Made by a program: the position numbers and the translations under genes. Under the pieces are notes generated by a model. The model did no database searches. It was given only the letters and a program-made list of their open reading frames with translations, and was not told the origin of the DNA. Positions 37,182-54,507 of a stretch of 64,000 nucleotides of DNA are shown piece by piece (position 1 is the stretch's first letter; every line of letters starts with the position of its first letter). The stretch spans positions 1-64,000 of the forward strand of contig JACQWO010000048.1 in the NCBI GenBank assembly GCA_016209225.1, written 5' to 3'. The DNA comes from Desulfobacterales bacterium. GTDB lineage: Bacteria; Desulfobacterota; UBA8473.

Positions 37182-38714
37182 TTATTCCTCCTCTATCCAG
37201 TTTTTTATCAGATTAGTAGCATCTTTTGGATTTTTCTTTGCCCATTCAATTACATGGGTCTTTGCAGGCTTTGCCTGTACCTCCAATCTCTTCTCTATTT
37301 CTGCTGTTGTCTGGGGCAGTTGCAAGGAGGGTTGTTGAGCAAGAGGTGAACCGGTGAGTGCCTTTACCAGTGGTCTAACTACAAAGAGAAACAACAAAAC
37401 CACTGCTAAAAGTGGGACAATGTATTTTACGACAGTAATGATAATAGGTATAATCTCAGTTTTAGGTTCAGGCAAGTCCTCCTGAGGGGCAACCTCAAAG
37501 GGCATATTTACCACCCTTACCTCGTCACCTCTGTCTGGCATAAAACCAACCGACTTCTTCACCATCTCCTCAAACTGTTTAATATCTTCTTCGGAACGAG
37601 GAGTATATTTCTTTTCCTTTGCACCCTGTTGGGGAGCATAGATGCCATCAATAAGAACGATTACCGAAAGCCTTTTTATCTCTCCTGAAGAGTTTATGAC
37701 ACGGCTTGTTACCTTGCTTATCTCATAATTTATGGCCTCGTTTTTCTTCTCCATCTGTCCCTGTTGTGATGCCATTTGTGGCGCCGTCTTTCCCGGAAGG
37801 TTCGATGAAACACCAGGGACACCGCCGATAATCCCAGTTATTGACTTTTCAACATTTTTCTGCTCGCTTCTTACAACCTGACTATCAGGATCAAACTTCT
37901 CTTCTGTTTTCTCGATCTTTGTAAAGTCAATAGCAGCAGTAACCTTTGCCTTTACGTGACCCTTGCCTACAACAGGTTGGAGGATACCCGTGATCCTGTT
38001 TTCCATATCCTTTTCATAATTACGCTGGTAATCCAACTGATCATTTGTCATTCCGATGGTTTCACCTGTACCGGATGTAAGCATCTCGCCACGGTTGTCA
38101 ACTATTGCTACATCCTTTGGATTCAGACCATTAACACTGCTTGACACAAGATGCACCATTCCCTGGACCTGACTCTGAGAGAGCCTCCTCCCCTGTCTCA
38201 ACTTTACAAGAACAGATGCCTTTGGCATTTCCTCCGACTGCGTAAATAAAGATTTTTCAGGAATAGCAAGATGCACTCTGCACTGTTCCACCTCCGAAAG
38301 TGATCTTATGGTTCTTGAAAGCTCACCCTGGAGCGCCCTTTTGTAATTTAATTTTTGAACAAATTCCGTCATCGTCAAGTTTGTTTTATCAAAAACCTCA
38401 AAACCGACACCTCCCCCCTGAGGAAGTCCCTGACTCGCAAGTTGGATCCTTAGCTCATACACCCTATTGGATGGGACCATTATTCCACCCCCGGATATTT
38501 TATAAGGGGTCTTTTGCTCATTCAGCTTCTGGATAATCAGGCCTGCATCTTCCTCACCCAGATTAGAATAAAGAAGTTGATAATCCTCCTTCTGTATCCA
38601 TGCAAATAAAAGGATGACAGAGGCTATAACCAGCGCAAGGACGGTTAGCAGTATCACCTTATTTTTTGTAGGTATAGCCTTTATCTGCTCGGTTATGTCA
38701 GCAATGTTGGCCAT
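37182..38714 (-). CDS. fliF: FliF MS-ring protein
   Basis: Forms the MS ring in the inner membrane. The 510-aa protein has two membrane helices (about 19-38 and 423-446), with a periplasmic part of ring-building motifs in between (LLYSNLGEEDAGLIIQKL, YELRIQLASQGLPQGG, NYEKDMENRI) and a C-terminal FliG-binding tail. It starts one base before the fliE stop (TAATG). Confidence 0.97.
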   Translation of the reverse strand: MANIADITEQIKAIPTKNKVILLTVLALVIASVILLFAWIQKEDYQLLYSNLGEEDAGLIIQKLNEQKTPYKISGGGIMVPSNRVYELRIQLASQGLPQGGGVGFEVFDKTNLTMTEFVQKLNYKRALQGELSRTIRSLSEVEQCRVHLAIPEKSLFTQSEEMPKASVLVKLRQGRRLSQSQVQGMVHLVSSSVNGLNPKDVAIVDNRGEMLTSGTGETIGMTNDQLDYQRNYEKDMENRITGILQPVVGKGHVKAKVTAAIDFTKIEKTEEKFDPDSQVVRSEQKNVEKSITGIIGGVPGVSSNLPGKTAPQMASQQGQMEKKNEAINYEISKVTSRVINSSGEIKRLSVIVLIDGIYAPQQGAKEKKYTPRSEEDIKQFEEMVKKSVGFMPDRGDEVRVVNMPFEVAPQEDLPEPKTEIIPIIITVVKYIVPLLAVVLLFLFVVRPLVKALTGSPLAQQPSLQLPQTTAEIEKRLEVQAKPAKTHVIEWAKKNPKDATNLIKNWIEEE

Positions 38715-39007
38715 TACACTTGCATCCTCATAATCTCTTCATAGGCGCTCAATAATTTATTTCTTATCTCTACCATTAACTGAAAAGACATTTCCGCCTT
38801 CTCCATGGTGATAATCGCCTGCGCGACATCTCCGCCTGAAGCGAGCTCTTTCACCGCATTATCGGCATCATTCTGTATTTGAGAAATCTTTCCGATAGCA
38901 TCTTGCATTACCTCGTCAAAACCTTTGCCGGAATCCTTACTGTTAGCCGTAACCTTTGAAAACTCCTGACCTGTCTTTATTCCTGTAATCGTAAGATCAG
39001 ACATCAT
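38714..39007 (-). CDS. fliE: FliE basal-body/MS-ring junction protein
   Basis: A 97-aa helical protein joining the MS ring to the rod. The C-terminal family motif AEMSFQLMVEIRNKLLSAYE is present. It overlaps flgC by 4 nt and fliF by one base. The start has two successive Met codons. Confidence 0.94.
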   Translation of the reverse strand: MMSDLTITGIKTGQEFSKVTANSKDSGKGFDEVMQDAIGKISQIQNDADNAVKELASGGDVAQAIITMEKAEMSFQLMVEIRNKLLSAYEEIMRMQV

Positions 39008-39417
39008 AACCTCCCCAGTTCAAGTGTCTTCATAAACATTGCCTTTGACATATTAAAGGTTGACACCGATGCCTCATATGCCCTGGATGCCATCATCATA
39101 TTTACCATCTCTTCTATAATGTTTATATTCGGCATTGCCACCTGTCCATCCTTATCCGCATCAGGATGCCCCGGATCATAAACTGTTTTGAAAGGTGTGT
39201 TGTCTGCAACTATATCAACAACCTTGACACCTTTAAATTCTCCAGGGTAGGAGTCCAATACCACCGAAGAAAAAACCACATCCTTTCTCCTATATGGGCC
39301 ACCTTCTTGCGTCCTTGTAGAATGGGCATTTGCCATATTGGATGCGATTACATTAATCCTTTGCCCCTGTGCACCAAGGGCTGACGCACTAATCTCAAAC
39401 ACAATGAAAGAACTCAT
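39004..39417 (-). CDS. flgC: FlgC proximal rod protein
   Basis: A 137-aa rod protein. It has the N-terminal rod signature QRINVIASNMANAHSTRT (about 18-35), then PYRRKDVVFSS and the C-terminal motif NIIEEMVNMMMASRAYEASV. It starts one base after the flgB stop. Confidence 0.95.
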   Translation of the reverse strand: MSSFIVFEISASALGAQGQRINVIASNMANAHSTRTQEGGPYRRKDVVFSSVVLDSYPGEFKGVKVVDIVADNTPFKTVYDPGHPDADKDGQVAMPNINIIEEMVNMMMASRAYEASVSTFNMSKAMFMKTLELGRL

Positions 39418-39418
39418 A

Positions 39419-39781
39419 TTACCTCCTCAATGCATTCTTAAACATTCTTATCTTTATAGAAAGCATAGAAATCCCTGCCTGGTATAACATTGCATTCTCT
39501 GTCATCTTCGCTACCTCTGTATCAAGATTTACATTATTTTTATCAGTCCCCTCTTGTGTTGTCTTTGTTACTATTTCCCCTGATGAATCTTGATAGCTGT
39601 TTTTTAAATGTTTCGGGTTTGTCGTTTTAAGTTCCATTCTTTCACCGAGAATCTGTTCAAATTTTACATCTCTGGCCTTATAGTCAGGTGTATCAACATT
39701 CGCGATATTAGAGGCTATAACACCATGCCTCATATTGGTCAAATGTATCAGATTTTCTAATATCTTAAATCCGTCACTCAT
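39419..39781 (-). CDS. flgB: FlgB proximal rod protein
   Basis: A 120-aa rod protein starting at ATG 39781 (MSDGFKILEN), with GGGAGAG upstream; a TTG six codons earlier is less likely. The rod signature GVIASNIANVDTPDYKARD (about 20-38) and the C-terminal NAMLYQAGISMLSIKIRM are diagnostic. It is the first gene of the flgBC-fliEFGHIJ operon; a near-consensus sigma-54 box lies just upstream. Confidence 0.95.
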   Translation of the reverse strand: MSDGFKILENLIHLTNMRHGVIASNIANVDTPDYKARDVKFEQILGERMELKTTNPKHLKNSYQDSSGEIVTKTTQEGTDKNNVNLDTEVAKMTENAMLYQAGISMLSIKIRMFKNALRR

Positions 39782-39805
39782 AAACACTCTCCCTGTCAAT
39801 TACCA

Positions 39806-39821
39806 TTCAATTACCATGCCA
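39806..39821 (-). promoter_or_regulatory. Near-consensus sigma-54 promoter before flgB
   Basis: On the minus strand TGGCATGGTAATTGAA: perfect -24 box, correct spacing, but GA instead of GC at -12. The predicted start of transcription is about 14 nt before the ATG, leaving room for GGGAGAG. The neighbouring NtrC-type activator (40049-41347) could act here. Confidence 0.5.
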
Positions 39822-46284: not shown

Positions 46285-46701
46285 CTACAAAATTTCATTC
46301 AACTCGGATAAACCTTTTTCTCCCTCTACAAGGAAAGGATGTAGCTCATACTGGATGAGGTCAGACAGTGTTATCCAGTCCTTACTCTCAAACGCGGGCA
46401 GCATATCCTCAAATATCTTAAGCGACCCATCCCAGGAGGATAGAAAGGGCTCCACCTGACTATAATCTTTAAGGGTTTCCATACCCCTTTTCAATTCCTT
46501 GATAAAATCTACCAGGTCGCTGAGATTATTTATTCCCCCTAACAGGGCATTAAAAACCTCTTCCGAATGTTCAACCCTGAGGAGACAGGAACAATCCAAC
46601 AGCCTATCCCCTATCTCTTTAGTAATACCTATAGCTTCAGTGATACCGTTCTTCATGGCATTTACCAGTTCTATTTCCTTTCCCTCGCATGCGATTCTCA
46701 T
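46285..46701 (-). CDS. Small protein of unknown function in the motility regulatory block
   Basis: A 138-aa acidic, largely helical protein without recognised motifs. It contains ACEGKEIELVNAMKNGITEA at the N-terminus and WDGSLKIFEDMLPAFESKDW (about 90-109). It is separated from the downstream activator by 97 nt and lies upstream of the glycosylation genes' 3' end. Export-chaperone-like roles (FliS/FliT type) are conceivable by size and composition but not supported by motif. Confidence 0.6.
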   Translation of the reverse strand: MRIACEGKEIELVNAMKNGITEAIGITKEIGDRLLDCSCLLRVEHSEEVFNALLGGINNLSDLVDFIKELKRGMETLKDYSQVEPFLSSWDGSLKIFEDMLPAFESKDWITLSDLIQYELHPFLVEGEKGLSELNEIL

Positions 46702-46890: not shown

Positions 46891-48564
46891 TCAAGCTTTG
46901 GCCTGCACCAGCCGTTCAATAAACCATATCATCATTGAGGCATGGTTCCTCAGGTCATTATAAAGGTTACACGTCTCTTCGGCTAAAACAGAAAGGTTTT
47001 CTCCCTCGAGGCCTTCCTTTCCGTATTTAAACAGCAGAGTCATGGGATGTAGAGGTGGCCGGGTGTGACCGATCTTCTCTATCTCCTGGTCAATAAAAGG
47101 AACCCCCTCCCATCTTTCCTTTATATATTCAATATTCGGGGTGGCGTTTCTAGCCTCCTCGGTTATGAGGTTCATTTTATTAAGACCGTCTTCAGATAGT
47201 TCCTTAAGTCTCACAAAGGCAGCAAGTGTGTTCTTAAGGGGATCAAAAATATGCTTTAAAGACCCTGAGCTATACCAACTGTTTATTTTACCGGCAATAT
47301 TCAAATATGCTCCCTCAATATTGTAATCATTCACACCATCGAGAACCCACTGCCATGTATGTCTGTAGTTATGTGACCAAAAATCATTTTCCTTAATGCA
47401 GCGCTTCAGAAGGGGGCGGTATTCCAGAAGACCGTCTTCAGAAAAATAAGAATAATAAACCTGAAGTTTTTCCCATACAGGTGAATCTTCTATGTCTCTT
47501 CCATTTATCGTCGCTTTTGCCAATTCAAAGAGATGGGTTACAGTTATTAAATCCTTGCAGAACATCTCTTTGCAGTCCACCTGGAATCCGCAGGGACTGC
47601 ACGGGATAGCGGCCTCAATAACATAGTGTCCGTCTCCATAAGGTCCTGTCTCTCTGAAATGGGCGGTGGCCAGAAAGATGCCGATAACCTTCGTCCCAAC
47701 CGCCGTCGAGATATGAAGAGGGCCGGTGTCATTGCTTATGAGGAGATTGCACCTTTTAAGTAGGGCAGCCAGTTCATTTAGATTTGTCTTGCCTATAAAA
47801 TTGATGGGCTTCATTTTGGCAAGTCTTTCAAATTCCTCACCCAGTTTTCCCTCGGAATTTCCCCCAATGAGGACGAACTTTGCGCCGAGAGTCTCAGTTA
47901 GCATATCTGACAACCTGGCGAAGGATGAAACCGGCCATCTCCTGTTGTCCTGGCTTGCCCCAAGCTGAAAGCCTATCAGGAGGTCTTCATCGCTAATCCC
48001 ATTTTCCCCTAAAACCGAACGCACCCATTCCCCTGCTTCCTCAGAGACATTAAGGTGAAGTCCTTTGTTTTCGGGCATAACACCCCCTGCTTTTATATAC
48101 AGATCGCAAAGATGGAATGGATTGTAGTTTCTGCTGGGAACTACATTAAAAAAGTACCTTATCCACGGATGTCTTATAAGGCCATGTCCTTCGTCATCTA
48201 TCGAGAATCCTCTCAATTCTTTCGTTTTAATCAGGGAGGTCAGCACAGCGCTGGCAGTCGAGTGAGTAAAATTTATAGTGAGGTCATACTCTGTTTCATT
48301 AATCTCCCTGAGTAGCCTTTCCATATATCTGAAATTATCTACAAGACTCGGCCCGCCATCGCTGACCATCTTCTCAAAGCAGGCCGTATTGAAGATAAAA
48401 AGCCTGTCTATATATGGGATATAGCTGCATATTTCAACAAAAACAGAGCTCACGAGCAGGTTGATCCTTACCCCCGGATACCTCTCTTTCAGACCTGCCA
48501 TCACCGGGGTGGTCTGCACAAGGTCTCCCATGCGGGTAAGGTTAATGATAAGAACATCTCTCAT
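46891..48564 (-). CDS. Family 9 glycosyltransferase (heptosyltransferase-like)
   Basis: A 557-aa protein: the first about 350 residues match ADP-heptose-type GT9 enzymes (IINLTRMGDLVQTTPVMAGL at 5-24; SNDTGPLHISTAVGTKVIGI at about 280), then a C-terminal extension of about 200 residues I do not recognise. GT9 enzymes usually act on LPS core, but here the gene is in an operon with other transferases next to flagellar genes, so flagellin or surface glycan modification is possible (inference). It follows the next gene upstream by two bases. Confidence 0.85.
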   Translation of the reverse strand: MRDVLIINLTRMGDLVQTTPVMAGLKERYPGVRINLLVSSVFVEICSYIPYIDRLFIFNTACFEKMVSDGGPSLVDNFRYMERLLREINETEYDLTINFTHSTASAVLTSLIKTKELRGFSIDDEGHGLIRHPWIRYFFNVVPSRNYNPFHLCDLYIKAGGVMPENKGLHLNVSEEAGEWVRSVLGENGISDEDLLIGFQLGASQDNRRWPVSSFARLSDMLTETLGAKFVLIGGNSEGKLGEEFERLAKMKPINFIGKTNLNELAALLKRCNLLISNDTGPLHISTAVGTKVIGIFLATAHFRETGPYGDGHYVIEAAIPCSPCGFQVDCKEMFCKDLITVTHLFELAKATINGRDIEDSPVWEKLQVYYSYFSEDGLLEYRPLLKRCIKENDFWSHNYRHTWQWVLDGVNDYNIEGAYLNIAGKINSWYSSGSLKHIFDPLKNTLAAFVRLKELSEDGLNKMNLITEEARNATPNIEYIKERWEGVPFIDQEIEKIGHTRPPLHPMTLLFKYGKEGLEGENLSVLAEETCNLYNDLRNHASMMIWFIERLVQAKA

Positions 48565-48566
48565 GC

Positions 48567-50390
48567 TTACGTTTTCATAGGGGCAAATTGCCCCTTGAAC
48601 TCCTTTATCAGCATAAATATCCTTTCTATATCCGAAAGTTCTCCCTTTCCCCCTATTATCTCTTCCGTGATATCCGAAACGGTTATTCTGGTTTTGCCGG
48701 AAAAGCGAGACATATACCTGCCAAGCTCTGTATCTCTTCCCGCCTCATCAATCAGCATTTCCACATCCTCTCTTTCGGTCTTCCACCGGGGAGGTTCGTA
48801 TCCTCTTTCTACTATGAAGGTCAGCATATCCTCCATCCGATGTTCGTAGGTATGATCCCTGAGAACACGCTCCCTCGCCTTCTGAGCGATCTCTTCTCTC
48901 TCCCCCGGATTGGAAAGGTAATAGTTTATCTTTTTCCTCAAGTCATTCAGGTCATGAAAGCAGATTATCTCTTCGCCGACTTTGAAAAGTTCCGGCAGCT
49001 CCGACCGATAATCCACAAGCTGGAATGCCCCACAAGCTGCTATTTCAAAGGTTCTAGGGTTTACAAAGTCGCCATAGGGGTTAATCCCCTCGTAGTATGT
49101 AGCGGAATGGAGGTTTATGTTTACCTTTGCTGCGTTGAATATCTTCACCGTCTCTTCTGTATCTATCCTTTCACCAGACCTCTGAATATGCTTCCCGAGT
49201 GGTGAATACATCTCCCACTCGGTCCCCCATATCTTGAGATCATAGTCAAGCAGACCCTTGAAAAAATTTTTCCTGTTGTAATATCCGGCTCCGACAAAGG
49301 AGACATCGCTGCCATATGTGGTTAACTCCTCTTCGGTGATGTCCAGTCTTTTATGGACATCCGGAAATGCCGCCAGGGGAAGATAGGAAAAGTTTTTTAG
49401 ACCCATCTCTTTTAACTTATCAAAGAATTTATCCCTCTGGATGGTAAAGAAATAGTCATAAAGGGGGGCAACCCCCTGCCAGTAGTCCATAAGCCCGAAG
49501 TCCTCCACAAACCAGAAGGCAGTGGGGATATTATTAGCTCTGAATCTCAAGAGACAACTCTCTCCGAGAGGCGCCTGGGCAAGGACAAAGATCAGGTCGG
49601 GTTTTGTCTCGGCGCAATGGGCCATAACAGCCTCAGAGACAAAGGAGGTAAATAACGCCTGGAGCTGATCCTGATGAGCCTTCTCTCCGGATATGGTTTT
49701 AATGGAAAAGTAGGTATCTCTGTAACGGCTGTTATCCATAAAGTCCACATCATGCCCCATATTCCTCAATGCATTCGCACAATACCCGGCAATGGGAAGG
49801 GAACCGCCGAAGATTGGCCCCACAACCATTATCTTTAAACCGTTTTTAACAGCTTTAATGACCTTTAGTTTCGGTCTGATCCGTTCAAGATAGGCAAGAT
49901 TCAAAGTCGCAGAAGGTTTATGTTCCAGGATTGTAAAACCCTTAGAGATAGGAGGGCATTCATCGCCTGTAACAATCTTGACCCTTGAAAGGACATACCT
50001 AAGGTCTGCCAGCTCTAATGCTGTCCTGAGGATATCCAGCCTTGGTTCAAAGACAATCACATCCATATCCGAAATCCTGCAGAGCTCCAGATTGCAAAGC
50101 TCCATAACGTGATACCCCAATCCAAAGCCAAGTACAATAACTGCCGATGCCTTTTCTATCTCTTCTCTATGGTACCCTACCCACCCCTCTGCCTCCTCTT
50201 TGGGGTCATACAGGCTGTGAAGGGTGATGTTTCCTGCCTTAATGGAAGGCATACCGTTTCTTGCAGTAAGTATCTGCAAATCATCACCCCTGGGAGCTCT
50301 CAGAATGGCCTCTGCAAGTTCAGGGTTTAGAGTTTTGAGAACTTCTATATTTTTTTCAAAAAACACTCTATTTAGCGTCCTTTTTTGCAA
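48567..50390 (-). CDS. Glycosyltransferase with Maf-like N-terminus and CgeB-like C-terminus
   Basis: A 607-aa protein. N-terminal about 1-185 resembles the N-terminal part of motility accessory factor (Maf) flagellin-glycosylation proteins, with VIVLGFGLGYHVMEL (84-98) and IVFEPRLDILRTAL. From about 190 on it resembles CgeB/DUF3880-type glycosyltransferases, with NPRTFEIAACGAFQLVDYRS and the C-terminal helix. The fusion is unusual to me. It overlaps its upstream neighbour by 23 nt. Confidence 0.75.
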   Translation of the reverse strand: MQKRTLNRVFFEKNIEVLKTLNPELAEAILRAPRGDDLQILTARNGMPSIKAGNITLHSLYDPKEEAEGWVGYHREEIEKASAVIVLGFGLGYHVMELCNLELCRISDMDVIVFEPRLDILRTALELADLRYVLSRVKIVTGDECPPISKGFTILEHKPSATLNLAYLERIRPKLKVIKAVKNGLKIMVVGPIFGGSLPIAGYCANALRNMGHDVDFMDNSRYRDTYFSIKTISGEKAHQDQLQALFTSFVSEAVMAHCAETKPDLIFVLAQAPLGESCLLRFRANNIPTAFWFVEDFGLMDYWQGVAPLYDYFFTIQRDKFFDKLKEMGLKNFSYLPLAAFPDVHKRLDITEEELTTYGSDVSFVGAGYYNRKNFFKGLLDYDLKIWGTEWEMYSPLGKHIQRSGERIDTEETVKIFNAAKVNINLHSATYYEGINPYGDFVNPRTFEIAACGAFQLVDYRSELPELFKVGEEIICFHDLNDLRKKINYYLSNPGEREEIAQKARERVLRDHTYEHRMEDMLTFIVERGYEPPRWKTEREDVEMLIDEAGRDTELGRYMSRFSGKTRITVSDITEEIIGGKGELSDIERIFMLIKEFKGQFAPMKT

Positions 50391-51198
50391 CTATCTCTCT
50401 AAGTGTCTCAAGGTAATGTCTGACTGACATCTCTTCTGGAAAGACATCCACAACCCCCTTTAACCTCTCAATAGCATTTTTTATCCGTAGCTCTTTTAAA
50501 AGGAAATCCACTAATACATATTCGCTTTTTAAATCAGGAGCAATTTCATATAAAGAAGCAATCATATAAGATATTGCCTCTTCTGCTCTTCCTTCTGAAT
50601 ATAGGGCATCTGCCCGCTCCCTTATACGGTAATGGATATAATCATCTTTTTTAATGAGTAAGCACCCATAATCACCAATGCCGGGAAAGCAAAAAAGTTC
50701 CTTCTCAATAATAAAAGATTTAAATTCTTCATGGTCCCAAAAGGAAATATGCTCTTCACATGGATTCCCATAGACGGCCGGCTGAGTCCATTTCTCTCCT
50801 AACGGTATATTAAGGATTAGATAACTGTTACAATGTGCTGCACATTTATCCAGAAATTGCCATGCCTTTTCTTTTTTTAAGTGCTCAAGGACATCACCTA
50901 AGATAATTAGATCATAATCTGCCAATCTATCTATAACCTCGAAGGCATCCCCTATGTAAATGTCATCATAGATAGCCCTTTGATGCTCCTGAATATAGTC
51001 TGGAAATACTTCTATCCCATCTATCCGTACTTGCCAGTCTTCCTTTCTATGCCTCTCGCCAAGCATTACATCAAGGAAGTCTCTGGCAATAAAACCCATT
51101 TTACCGTTTCCAAGCCCGATATCGAGTATAGATGAAGGCATAACTATTTGCAGGAATCGAACCACGGTAGGTATATGACTATAAGTACTTGTTGGCAT
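50368..51198 (-). CDS. SAM-dependent methyltransferase with helical C-terminus
   Basis: A 276-aa protein: class I methyltransferase fold with SAM motif ILDIGLGNGKMGF (24-36), acidic IDGIEVF and LIILGDVLEHLKKE, then about 85 C-terminal residues resembling TPR helices (RADALYSEGRAEEAISYM). It probably methylates a sugar or surface component in this operon (inference). It overlaps both neighbours (20 and 23 nt). Confidence 0.8.
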   Translation of the reverse strand: MPTSTYSHIPTVVRFLQIVMPSSILDIGLGNGKMGFIARDFLDVMLGERHRKEDWQVRIDGIEVFPDYIQEHQRAIYDDIYIGDAFEVIDRLADYDLIILGDVLEHLKKEKAWQFLDKCAAHCNSYLILNIPLGEKWTQPAVYGNPCEEHISFWDHEEFKSFIIEKELFCFPGIGDYGCLLIKKDDYIHYRIRERADALYSEGRAEEAISYMIASLYEIAPDLKSEYVLVDFLLKELRIKNAIERLKGVVDVFPEEMSVRHYLETLREIVAKKDAK

Positions 51199-54061
51199 TA
51201 ACTTCCTCTGTAATCTTTCTCCTTAACTTCAGGGCATCATTTCTTTCAGGTTCAAAGATAAGGAGCCTTTCAAGGCTTTCCATTGCCTTGTCCGAAAGAC
51301 CAAGTTTGCAGCACACATCTGCATGTCCATAAAGGATATCTGTATCGGCGGGATGAGACTCTAAATATTCTTCAAGCGCCCTATTTGCTTCCTCAAGATT
51401 GCCCGCTTCAACAGCAAACTTCACAGTGTCATGCACCTTTTGAATCTCATGCCCGGCTTTCTGCGCCTTTATCAGATATTGGACAACAAAAAGATCCTTT
51501 AACTCCTCAGGCGAAAGACCCTTCAGAGAAACCCTGCCAAAGGATATCTCTCCTGAAAGTGGATCATTAAGATTGTAATATGCAGGATTCATATTCTCAG
51601 TTATTCCAATAATCTCAAGACCTGCCTCATTGAATAGAGACTCAATCTCCTTTTTAGTAAAGAATCTCAGATGGGTTTTATCAAGAATACCGCAGTCTTC
51701 ATACTTCCAACGTCCCTCTACCACCATATCTAATACGCCGTAATATCTGACATTCGGGATGCTTGCGACAACCGTCCCCGAAGGTGAAAGATAGCTCTTA
51801 AGTTTTTTAAGGGCCAGTAGCGGATTTCTTAAATGTTCCAGTACATCGGCAAAAATTATACAATCAAAAGATTTTTCATCAAAAGAAAGTTCCATCTCCT
51901 CTATATCACCGCATATAACACCTGAGAGATTCCTGACAGCCCTTTTACATATCTCTGGATTAATCTCTATCCCGATTACCTCTTTTGCTCCTTTCTTCAA
52001 AAGCCTCTTCCCAAGTATGCCTTCTCCGCAACCAACCTCTAAAATCCTCATTGTATCTTCAGGTATAAGAGCCTCTATATCTTTTCGTTCCTGAGAGAAG
52101 TAATCTCTGTCCTTTGCATCCATAGATGGAAGAGAAAAAATCATGGACAGCATTTCAGATATCCTGTGTTTATAGGTATGTCTATTTAATACCTCTTCCA
52201 TCCCTTCAGAAGCTATTTTTTCTCTTCCATCTATGTTTTCGAGATAATACTCAGCAAGCCTGAGTAGTTCTTTTTCATCCCTGTATATTACAAGGTGCTT
52301 TCTATCTTGGAAGAATTCCGTTAATCCGCTTCCCTTTGCCTCATCCGTGAGAAGCAAACTGCCTGATGCCATTGCCTCAAACACCCTCATATTAAGATCA
52401 TCTTTTATTGAATTATTAAATACAATCTTAGACTGGGAAAATACCTCCGTCATCCTTTCAAGGAAACACCTCTCGCAGTGTAGATTAAACCTGCTGCCGA
52501 GCTTATTCAGCATGTCAACCCGCTTAGGATCCGTAAGGCTTCCTACAAAACCGATGTCATACAACTTTTTTTCTGTCTTCCTCCCATGTGTCTCGGGGTC
52601 ACAGGCCAGGGGTAGCCAAAATACCCTTTCAATTCCAACATCTCTAAACCTCGGGATATACGACCTCTGGGCAAGAAACACATGGTCAAAGTCCCTTGCA
52701 ATCCCGATATGCCTGTCGAGGTTTAAGTGAGTATCAATAAGATAGCAGGCCGATGGACAAGGGAGACTTTCAATAGCCTCCATAGGGTAAGATATCCCGC
52801 TTTCAACCCAGAGGAAAAGATCAGGAGACCATTCCTTCGGAAGCCTCTGGAGCACCTCTCTCAAATCCGCAGTAAAGTAAGGGATGTCATGCTCCCTCAC
52901 CCTATCTTTTATACTTTCCATATTCCATTCTTTGAGGATTTTATCATCTATCCTGGGACCAAAGGTTATCACATCATGGGACTTCCGCAGTGCCTTTTCC
53001 ATATATGCGGCCGTGGTCTGAGGATTTGATGTATAACTCATCAAAATTTTCAGTTTTTTACTTTCTGTTACAGTCGTTTGTTCTGGGAATGACAGAAAAC
53101 CTGAATCTCCTATAACCCTCTTCCAGTCTCTGATAAATCTCTCCATAGGGAATCTGTCCATTACCGTTTCCCTTGCCCTTTGTCCCAGCGTTTCTGCCAA
53201 TGATAAATCTTTCAAGAGTTCCTCTGTCCTCTTTCTCAAATACCCTTCGTCTGCAGATAGAAAGCCATTAATGCCGTCCTCGATTGGGGAAGATAAATTG
53301 GCAATGGAGACAACAGGCATACCGGTTGTCATTGCCTCAAGCATAGCAAGATTATAACCATCCTCGTAAGGCGCTACAGTAGTGTTTAAATATGCCCTAT
53401 AGCTTCTCATAAATTCTCTGAATTCATCCCAGCTCTGTGGAATATATGAATCAGCTATGGTTGGATTAAGACCAATAATTGATGACGGCAAACCATTGAG
53501 AATCTTTTCCTGCATTGAATAGCCTAGCATTATATCCCGCTCCTTAAGTCCATTTCCTACCCTCAGTACCTTCTCTACATCTCCTGCATAACCATTGTAT
53601 TCGGAAGGGTCAATGCCAGGAAGTATTATCTCCCCGTCCAATCCCCAATCATCCCTCTTTGCCTTAGAGATGAAGACCAATGAGAGGTTTTTGGTCGTGT
53701 CAAAAAGTTGACGAAGATATCCCAGATATTCATTTTTATCCACACTATTCCCACCGAGAGCTATCTCTGTGGAGAGTTTATTGTGAAAGATTAAAACCTT
53801 TGGTGTCAGCCATTCTTTGACAAAGAGAAGGTCGTTAATATTGTGAGCTAAAATCCTATCATACCTTCCTGATTTAAGCCCCTCCCTTGCCTCATCTTCA
53901 GATATCAGGCGACAGTTAGAAGGCACCGGCCTGAACTCCTTCATCCAGCCATATCTGCCTCCCTTCCATCTTTCAACCACATCAAATTCATAACCTGTCT
54001 TAGCCAAAAGGTGGATATATGACTCATGCCAATTAAATGTAAGGATATATGGTAGTTTCAT
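51179..54061 (-). CDS. Giant fusion: two glycosyltransferases, methyltransferase and TPR
   Basis: A 960-aa protein. Order: GT-B transferase (about 1-325, with NTTVAPYEDGYNLAMLEAMT and GMPVVS), CgeB-like transferase (about 335-640, with NMRVFEAMASGSLLLTDEAK), class I methyltransferase (about 655-815, ILEVGCGEGILGKRLL) and TPR-type repeats (about 865-955). It is the first gene of the glycosylation operon. A good sigma-54 box at 54074-54089 would give a nearly leaderless mRNA, and no Shine-Dalgarno is seen before the ATG. Target is unknown; flagellin is a plausible substrate. Confidence 0.8.
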   Translation of the reverse strand: MKLPYILTFNWHESYIHLLAKTGYEFDVVERWKGGRYGWMKEFRPVPSNCRLISEDEAREGLKSGRYDRILAHNINDLLFVKEWLTPKVLIFHNKLSTEIALGGNSVDKNEYLGYLRQLFDTTKNLSLVFISKAKRDDWGLDGEIILPGIDPSEYNGYAGDVEKVLRVGNGLKERDIMLGYSMQEKILNGLPSSIIGLNPTIADSYIPQSWDEFREFMRSYRAYLNTTVAPYEDGYNLAMLEAMTTGMPVVSIANLSSPIEDGINGFLSADEGYLRKRTEELLKDLSLAETLGQRARETVMDRFPMERFIRDWKRVIGDSGFLSFPEQTTVTESKKLKILMSYTSNPQTTAAYMEKALRKSHDVITFGPRIDDKILKEWNMESIKDRVREHDIPYFTADLREVLQRLPKEWSPDLFLWVESGISYPMEAIESLPCPSACYLIDTHLNLDRHIGIARDFDHVFLAQRSYIPRFRDVGIERVFWLPLACDPETHGRKTEKKLYDIGFVGSLTDPKRVDMLNKLGSRFNLHCERCFLERMTEVFSQSKIVFNNSIKDDLNMRVFEAMASGSLLLTDEAKGSGLTEFFQDRKHLVIYRDEKELLRLAEYYLENIDGREKIASEGMEEVLNRHTYKHRISEMLSMIFSLPSMDAKDRDYFSQERKDIEALIPEDTMRILEVGCGEGILGKRLLKKGAKEVIGIEINPEICKRAVRNLSGVICGDIEEMELSFDEKSFDCIIFADVLEHLRNPLLALKKLKSYLSPSGTVVASIPNVRYYGVLDMVVEGRWKYEDCGILDKTHLRFFTKKEIESLFNEAGLEIIGITENMNPAYYNLNDPLSGEISFGRVSLKGLSPEELKDLFVVQYLIKAQKAGHEIQKVHDTVKFAVEAGNLEEANRALEEYLESHPADTDILYGHADVCCKLGLSDKAMESLERLLIFEPERNDALKLRRKITEEVNANKYL

Positions 54062-54073
54062 ATTTAAATATTA

Positions 54074-54089
54074 AGCAAATATCTTGCCA
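54074..54089 (-). promoter_or_regulatory. Sigma-54 promoter of the glycosylation operon
   Basis: On the minus strand TGGCAAGATATTTGCT: GG and GC are 10 nt apart, TTGCT at -12, five of five in the -24 TGGCA core. It lies about 13 nt from the ATG, so the leader would be very short. It is divergent from the flgF sigma-54 box. Confidence 0.65.
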
Positions 54090-54143: not shown

Positions 54144-54218
54144 AACCGTGAACCGTGAACCGTGAACCGTGAACCGTGAACTGTGAACCGTGAACTGTGA
54201 ACCGTGAATCGTGAATGG
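54144..54218. repeat. GTGAACC 7-nt word array
   Basis: At least nine copies of the word GTGAACC or a variant (CGTGAACTGTGAACCGTGAATCG) in a row, with no stop in some frames. The reverse frame reads FTVHGSRFTVHG and is not a gene. Confidence 0.92.
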
Positions 54219-54270: not shown

Positions 54271-54286
54271 TGGCATTACCATTGCA
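54271..54286 (+). promoter_or_regulatory. Sigma-54 promoter of flgF operon
   Basis: TGGCATTACCATTGCA: perfect -24 box, 10-nt spacing and perfect TTGCA at -12. The predicted transcription start is near 54298, with a leader of about 165 nt to flgF. Best sigma-54 site in the window. Confidence 0.8.
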
Positions 54287-54430: not shown

Positions 54431-54507
54431 AATCTATACAGCATTATCAGGAGCAGTCTTAAAATGTATAAAGGAATCTATATAGCCCTATCAGGGGCAG
54501 TCTTGAA
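54431..54507 (+). repeat. flgF 5' coding sequence duplicated into its leader (44-nt period)
   Basis: 54431-54463 (AATCTATACAGCATTATCAGG...) matches 54475-54507 within flgF (AATCTATATAGCCCTATCAGG...) at about 28 of 33 bases. The offset is 44 nt, so the copy is out of frame with flgF. The copy's AGGAG serves as the Shine-Dalgarno for flgF. Confidence 0.85.

Follow-up and report, generated by a model that had tools for sequence, protein, structure and literature searches.

An operon of four genes embedded among flagellar genes is best read, with a probability of about 0.75, as a cytoplasmic system for the O-glycosylation of flagellin. In this system, a constant core of two proteins, namely a Maf-type N-domain fused to a CgeB-type transferase (MafN-CgeB) and a GT9 protein with a C-terminal tail, is accompanied by variable elaborating enzymes. 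The reading draws on computed observations, which comprise the domain make-up of the proteins, the conservation of the core pair, its co-occurrence and clustering with flagellin genes, and the fusions found among relatives.

Organization and genomic neighborhood of the operon

The window, i.e., the whole stretch analysed, covers positions 1-64,000 of a contig of 124,191 bases. A check of its open reading frames confirmed four genes on the minus strand between positions 46891 and 54061, which, in the order of transcription, encode a 960-aa protein combining GT4, CgeB, methyltransferase and TPR domains (51179..54061), a 276-aa class I-like methyltransferase (50368..51198), the 607-aa MafN-CgeB (48567..50390) and the 557-aa tailed GT9 (46891..48564). 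They are followed by the gene of a 138-aa accessory protein, here called H138 (46285..46701, minus strand), and by that of an NtrC-type regulator; two regulators of this type were found near the operon by Pfam. The first-pass annotation had described four overlapping genes, which is nearly right: two neighboring pairs share 20 and 23 bases, but the third is separated by a gap of 2 bases. Because all four genes have relatives or fused counterparts elsewhere, the operon is more than a chance assembly.

Flagellar genes lie on either side of the operon, with fliF, flgC and flgB at 37182-39799 and flgF at 54464, and flgG, flgA, flgH and flgI are located further out (labels read off the ORF translations). 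Strictly, the remark that the window encodes no flagellin holds, but a Flagellin_N match (E 1.4e-43, in an ORF of 281 aa) begins at contig position 64338, which is 338 bases beyond the window end. This flagellin is preceded by FlgK, FlgL and FliW and followed by FlaG, FliD and FliS, as read from translations and gene order. After fliS lies a second island, which encodes a radical SAM protein, a UDP-glucose dehydrogenase type enzyme, a methyltransferase, GT2 proteins with TPRs and a second MafN-CgeB of 593 aa (L023:17941-19722), whose Maf_flag10_N match stays below the cut-off. Together with its relatives, this copy represents a second type of MafN-CgeB, with an insertion of ~80 residues and no D-x7-E pair. 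Beside the intact copy of the UDP-glucose dehydrogenase-like gene, a second one is distributed over three short ORFs and seemingly broken (L023:11589-12546, contig C6 71588-72545).

Upstream of the 960-aa gene, a candidate sigma-54 promoter, TGGCAAGATATTTGCT (54074..54089, minus strand), constitutes the sole match with one mismatch in the window, and similar sites with two mismatches lie at 54271, facing flgF, and at 39806, before flgB. Sites with at most two mismatches number 8 in the window, as compared to 5.7 expected; the site at 54074 is therefore weak on its own, and only the locations of these sites are suggestive. From the site at 54074, transcription would be predicted to start ~2 bases ahead of the ATG (counted by hand), which argues either against this site or for a leaderless message. 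Sigma-28 sites number 4 as compared to 0.6 expected, and none was found upstream of the operon. A tandem repeat of 7 bases in 10 copies (AACCGTG) is located between the operon and flgF, at 54144-54215.

A Maf-type N-domain joined to a CgeB-type transferase

The 607-aa protein consists of a Maf-type N-domain (residues ~1-180), a CgeB-type GT-B domain (~184-533) and a short helical C-terminus. In Pfam, Maf_flag10_N (PF20157) scores 32.9 bits over a cut-off of 23.5, DUF3880 scores 55.5 bits and Glyco_trans_1_2 142.3 bits, the latter two being the CgeB pair; the fusion of a Maf-like N-domain to a CgeB-like transferase, proposed from the sequence at first pass, is thus borne out. Among 61 aligned members (alignment A4, which, drawn like A5 and A6 from length-filtered lists, holds the window protein and 60 of its 63 MafN-CgeB relatives, without L075, L078 and L098), Glyco_trans_1_2 and DUF3880 are matched in 61/61 and Maf_flag10_N in 49.

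Pfam covers just 60 residues of the N-domain. An N-domain HMM built from 61 relatives gave full-length or nearly full-length matches (E 1e-16 to 3e-29) to eight Maf proteins, each from a site with a PF01973 match and picked for matching the N-domain, so that they do not represent a random sample of Mafs, and hhalign assigned a probability of 99.92% to the comparison of the N-domain with Maf. Residues N14, P63, G88, G90, G92, Y93 and E115 are common to all eight Mafs and to at least 54 of the 61 MafN-CgeB proteins. Judged by these profile comparisons, the resemblance of the N-domain to Maf is genuine and extends from end to end. The Maf catalytic domain PF01973 has no Pfam match in the 607-aa protein and none over the cut-off in the whole genome, in which the lone match, below the cut-off, lies on contig C14 in a 586-aa protein (L119:5428-7188) made up of an HMGL-like aldolase domain and a weak MptE/Maf-like domain (20 bits, with a cut-off of 34.6). 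The genes of a NeuB protein and of a fusion of cytidylyltransferase and phosphatase are ~6 kb away, in what seems to be a surface-sugar locus.

The structure model of MafN-CgeB (pLDDT 93.5) predicts a GT4-like GT-B fold for residues 179-533, with Z scores of 26.0 to 2jjm, 25.9 to 3mbo and 25.4 to 6tvp. Structure searches with this model and with that of the GT9 were dominated by matches to the catalytic domains, so that the folds of N-domain and tail were barely probed; 5mu5, the Maf structure, matched the family profile only at E 0.014. D441 is invariant and E449 at least 90% conserved among the 61 type-1 sequences, and we take this D441-x7-E449 pair to be the counterpart of the E-x7-E motif of GT4 enzymes. 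The second copy on the same contig carries Q-x7-D at this place (as read by eye), which would suit an inactive MafN-CgeB that serves as a scaffold or regulator, with the GT9 or the 960-aa protein doing the linking. Given the conserved acidic pair of type 1 and its predicted intact GT4-like fold, however, we consider such a role of the type-1 protein unlikely.

The tailed GT9 and the accompanying proteins

The 557-aa protein has a GT9 domain at residues 82-325 (Pfam PF01075, 110.6 bits) and no Pfam match thereafter, in agreement with its earlier description as a GT9 with a tail of ~200 residues of no known family. Its AlphaFold model (pLDDT 94.3) predicts a heptosyltransferase GT-B fold from residue 1 to ~358 and, at ~365-557, a C-terminal part of ~190 residues composed of two strands and a subsequent helical domain, and the structure search gave Z scores of 34.9 to 3tov, 30.6 to WaaF (1psw) and 20 to 4rb4. 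The tail is absent from the five other GT9s of the genome (345-391 aa). For alignment A5, the window protein was combined with 63 of 70 GT9s, seven being omitted, and a PHROGs search of the GT9 and of H138 yielded no convincing match. A four-cysteine motif (C322-x2-C325-x5-C331-x4-C336), considered as a mark of protein heptosylation after the iron finger of TibC, was rejected: it is absent from E. coli WaaF, WaaC and WaaQ, but is found in all six GT9s of the genome, including the WaaF-type enzyme, and is therefore uninformative on a protein target.

The GT9 family is that of the LPS heptosyltransferases, the predicted fold of the window protein is WaaF/WaaC-like, and CgeB-type and GT4 domains are also found in polysaccharide clusters, all of which would be in line with an operon that makes lipopolysaccharide or another surface polysaccharide and adjoins flagellar genes by chance. 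We nevertheless regard this as very unlikely. The window GT9 passed none of the NCBIfam equivalogs for LPS heptosyltransferases I, II and III (101.4, 83.3 and 87.5, with cut-offs of 185.3, 134.6 and 170.2, respectively), staying far below them. LPS-type heptosyltransferases are encoded elsewhere in the genome, which weakens the alternative further: a WaaF-type enzyme on contig C88 (258.9 over a cut-off of 134.6), one of type III on C46 (219.6 over 170.2) and a WaaC-like protein just under its cut-off (180.8, cut-off 185.3). Neither a Maf N-domain nor a tight link to flagellin would be expected of an LPS operon, and the NeuB/CMP-sugar locus lies separately on C14.

In the 276-aa protein, Methyltransf_23/12 remain below their cut-offs (23.4 bits, cut-off 27), which makes the methyltransferase assignment a weak one; the protein contains ILDIGLGNGK, which we take to be SAM motif I, and 201 of its residues match a counterpart within the fusion protein L087:3636-9995 (E 3e-90). 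The TPR-like tail that had been ascribed to it was not recovered, as there is no TPR match at E <= 0.1. Among the four proteins, TPR is matched over the cut-off solely at the C-terminal end of the 960-aa protein, in which Pfam matched GT4, DUF3880/Glyco_trans_1_2, a methyltransferase and TPR_19, i.e., all four domain types previously listed for it, and whose domain order is repeated in L036 and L060.

H138 shares with its relatives a nearly invariant stretch of the consensus DWIxLSDLIEYEL (alignment A6, with 23 of 24 relatives, L096 being left out, and the window protein). No consistent Pfam match was obtained for H138, and no Pfam family describes this stretch. The relatives occur in a short form and in a long form with ~70-100 extra N-terminal residues. 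In hhalign comparisons of six pairs, the GT9 tail, H138 and the C-terminus of MafN-CgeB remained below a probability of 5% with the Maf C-terminal bundle and with each other. As no homology is detectable between the tail, H138 and the C-terminal domain of Maf, a shared flagellin-binding role would be a guess.

A conserved core pair with varying partners

A profile scan of 84,980 species genomes provided the best 80 loci for analysis, which were chosen by similarity to the MafN-CgeB alignment and by one peptide pattern, so that their taxonomic spread is a lower bound. According to the genome titles, these best 80 loci include Nitrospirota, Nitrospinota, groups of Desulfobacterota, Calditrichota, Zixibacteria, Latescibacterota, Cloacimonadota, Electryonea and others. 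The GT9 directly follows MafN-CgeB on the same strand in 76/80 loci by script and in 78/80 on re-reading, which added L049 and L103; as to the exceptions, the contig of L098 stops 37 bases beyond MafN-CgeB, which leaves L112 as the one genuine miss. A tailed GT9 is present in 76 of the best 80 loci. Of the 58 loci with sufficient room, 40 have a relative of H138, as judged by HMM matches, no more than 2.5 kb downstream of their last tailed GT9, and 14 of the 18 misses concern genomes titled Nitrospina, Nitrospinaceae, Nitrospinia or Nitrospinota.

Several members of the operon are found joined within single proteins. The GT9-tail is fused to a second-type MafN-CgeB in L053 and to a CgeB without a detected N-domain in L057, L079 and L103, and the 960-aa type is fused to H138 in L092. 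MafN-CgeB itself is joined to the GT4 domain of the 960-aa type in L044, L046 (judged by eye) and L054, to GT4 and GT17 in L052 and L055, and to two GT2 domains in L051. A chain of 2119 aa, L087:3636-9995, joins the 960-aa type to the 276-aa methyltransferase and thereby unites CgeB, a methyltransferase, a methyltransferase of the 276-aa type, GT4 and TPR. Every type of gene in the operon thus occurs fused to another member in some relative, and we take these cross-fusions as evidence that the enzymes probably work jointly. Of the "unusual fusions" noted at first pass, the larger ones indeed differ between species, whereas the architectures of MafN-CgeB and GT9-tail are conserved. With MafN-CgeB and GT9-tail constant and the other transferases changing, the pattern would fit a constant protein-linked core and a variable outer chain.

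Association with flagellin genes

Co-occurrence with flagellin genes, which the first-pass annotation had named as a check, was found across genomes. The Flagellin_N model, which also scores the flagellin paralogue FlgL, matched over its cut-off in 50/50 and 29/30 genomes of the best 80 loci (79/80), the genome of L086 having the cassette and no flagellin match; at E <= 1e-25, flagellin was found in 50/50 and 27/30, with G212, G222 and G225 staying below. In a phylum sample of 158 genomes, flagellin at E <= 1e-25 is present in 27 of 29 genomes with a CgeB family match as compared to 38 of 129 without. The full-length MafN-CgeB, a hand-selected set in which the proteins of G001 and G008 are split over contigs, occurs in 17 of the 158 genomes, and flagellin at this threshold accompanies it in 16/17, as compared to 49/141 genomes without the protein (Fisher p 2e-6, uncorrected for kinship among the genomes). 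The one departure, G144, has weaker Flagellin_N matches only (best 1.6e-18), and G128 has a CgeB-family match without N-domain and no flagellin. In 12 of the 29 genomes with a CgeB family match, this match comes without the N-domain, which is hence not a general feature of the wider family.

Canonical Maf (PF01973) is accompanied by flagellin in 21 of 27 genomes of the same sample, so the link of MafN-CgeB to flagellin is no weaker than that of Maf. The congeners G003 and G004 have neither flagellin nor MafN-CgeB, and G002 (73% complete) is without flagellin and without type-1 MafN-CgeB, the second type being present. Mutual exclusion of Maf and MafN-CgeB was considered but not supported: among the 65 flagellin-positive genomes, PF01973 is present in 3/16 with full-length MafN-CgeB as compared to 18/49 others (p 0.23).

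Filament or hook-associated genes are located in the flanks of 23 of the best 80 loci and were absent from the flanks in 57, many of the contigs being short; random placement would give ~1-2% of loci, an estimate based on ~20 kb out of ~3 Mb. In 9 of the 80, the cassette lies between flgL and fliC/fliD/fliS or, in L090, beside flgK-flgL at a contig end. Together with the co-occurrence and with the flagellin at 64338 beside FliW, FlaG, FliD and FliS, this clustering upholds the earlier suggestion of flagellin as the presumed target of the operon, which we consider well supported. That all nine loci are beside flgK-flgL, eight of them with fliC on the other side, and that flagellin and FlgL are paralogous might instead point to another flagellar protein, such as the hook-associated proteins, the hook or FlgL, but we give such a target a slim chance, as several Nitrospinota-type cassette genomes have 5-9 flagellin-family matches and as Maf and FlmG enzymes act on flagellin according to the respective reports (PMC11339370, PMC7591256).

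Proposed mode of action and relation to known systems

In the proposed flagellin glycosylation system, MafN-CgeB and the tailed GT9 would make a protein-linked glycan core on flagellin before its export, and the 960-aa protein and the 276-aa methyltransferase would extend and methylate this glycan, possibly into a methylated multi-sugar chain. Recognition of flagellin, or the holding together of the enzymes, may fall to the Maf-type N-domain and perhaps also to the helical tail, H138 and the TPR parts, and the second island, with its UDP-sugar dehydrogenase, GT2s and second MafN-CgeB, may add to the same glycan or build a second one. The order of transfer, the sugars, the role of the N-domain and the physical complex in this scheme are what we infer.

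Within what is known of flagellin glycosylation, the cassette represents a conserved variant. Beyond this, we tentatively suggest that MafN-CgeB and the tailed GT9 might represent a further class of flagellin O-glycosyltransferases beside Maf and FlmG, in which the Maf N-domain would be a portable module for flagellin recognition or for the sugar donor, used on two unrelated catalytic domains, and in which neighboring transferases would be shuffled to give a species-specific flagellar glycan. The literature on Maf describes its N-domain as a degenerate Rossmann-like fold of unclear function and calls the roles of the non-catalytic domains unclear (PMC11339370). Because the present family retains the Maf N-domain next to a different catalytic domain, it sets the N-domain apart and makes its role testable, and, given the cassette, glycosylated flagellins would be predicted for Nitrospirota, Nitrospinota, Desulfobacterota, Calditrichota and other phyla. 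Among the titles of the open-licence literature, no report of flagellin glycosylation in Nitrospirae was found, and none that connects CgeB with flagellin or the flagellum, GT9 with the glycosylation of flagellin, or DUF3880 with Maf or flagella could be recognised as describing this architecture.

Known systems resemble the operon in different parts. The clusters PA1088-PA1091 of Pseudomonas aeruginosa and Type A of Clostridioides difficile likewise provide a multifunctional GT and a separate methyltransferase for flagellin, but they are GT2-based and involve methylated threonine from a CDP-activated donor, and no Maf N-domain, CgeB or GT9 is described in the available part of the report (PMC11833859). 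TibC and the bacterial autotransporter heptosyltransferases share the GT9-type fold (Z 20 to 4rb4) and the four-cysteine motif, whereas the helical tail of the window GT9 is without a counterpart in the accessible description of TibC (PMC4358343). The catalytic domain of the window GT9 starts at residue 1, so there is no N-terminal beta-barrel of the TibC type.

Caulobacter FlmG, a flagellin O-glycosyltransferase of TPR and GT-B, is reported to bind flagellin through its TPRs (PMC7591256). By analogy, the proposed flagellin-binding region of MafN-CgeB would also be separate from the GT-B domain, and the 960-aa protein likewise joins GT and TPR, although its TPR is C-terminal and the FlmG layout of N-terminal TPR and C-terminal GT-B was not found. 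Unlike in FlmG as described there (PMC7591256), the candidate recognition module is a Maf N-domain, and several transferases occur together.

With Maf proteins (PF20157 and PF01973), MafN-CgeB shares a homologous full-length N-domain, the same GxGxGY...E signature and the link to flagellin genes. With regard to nonulosonic acid transfer by Maf, the genome encodes a NeuB-family protein, but its gene is located on contig C14 rather than near the flagellar genes. MafN-CgeB is without a sequence match to the Maf C-terminal bundle and, in place of PF01973, carries a CgeB-type GT-B domain with a predicted GT4-like fold, whereas the catalytic domain of Maf is described as sialyltransferase-like (PMC11339370).
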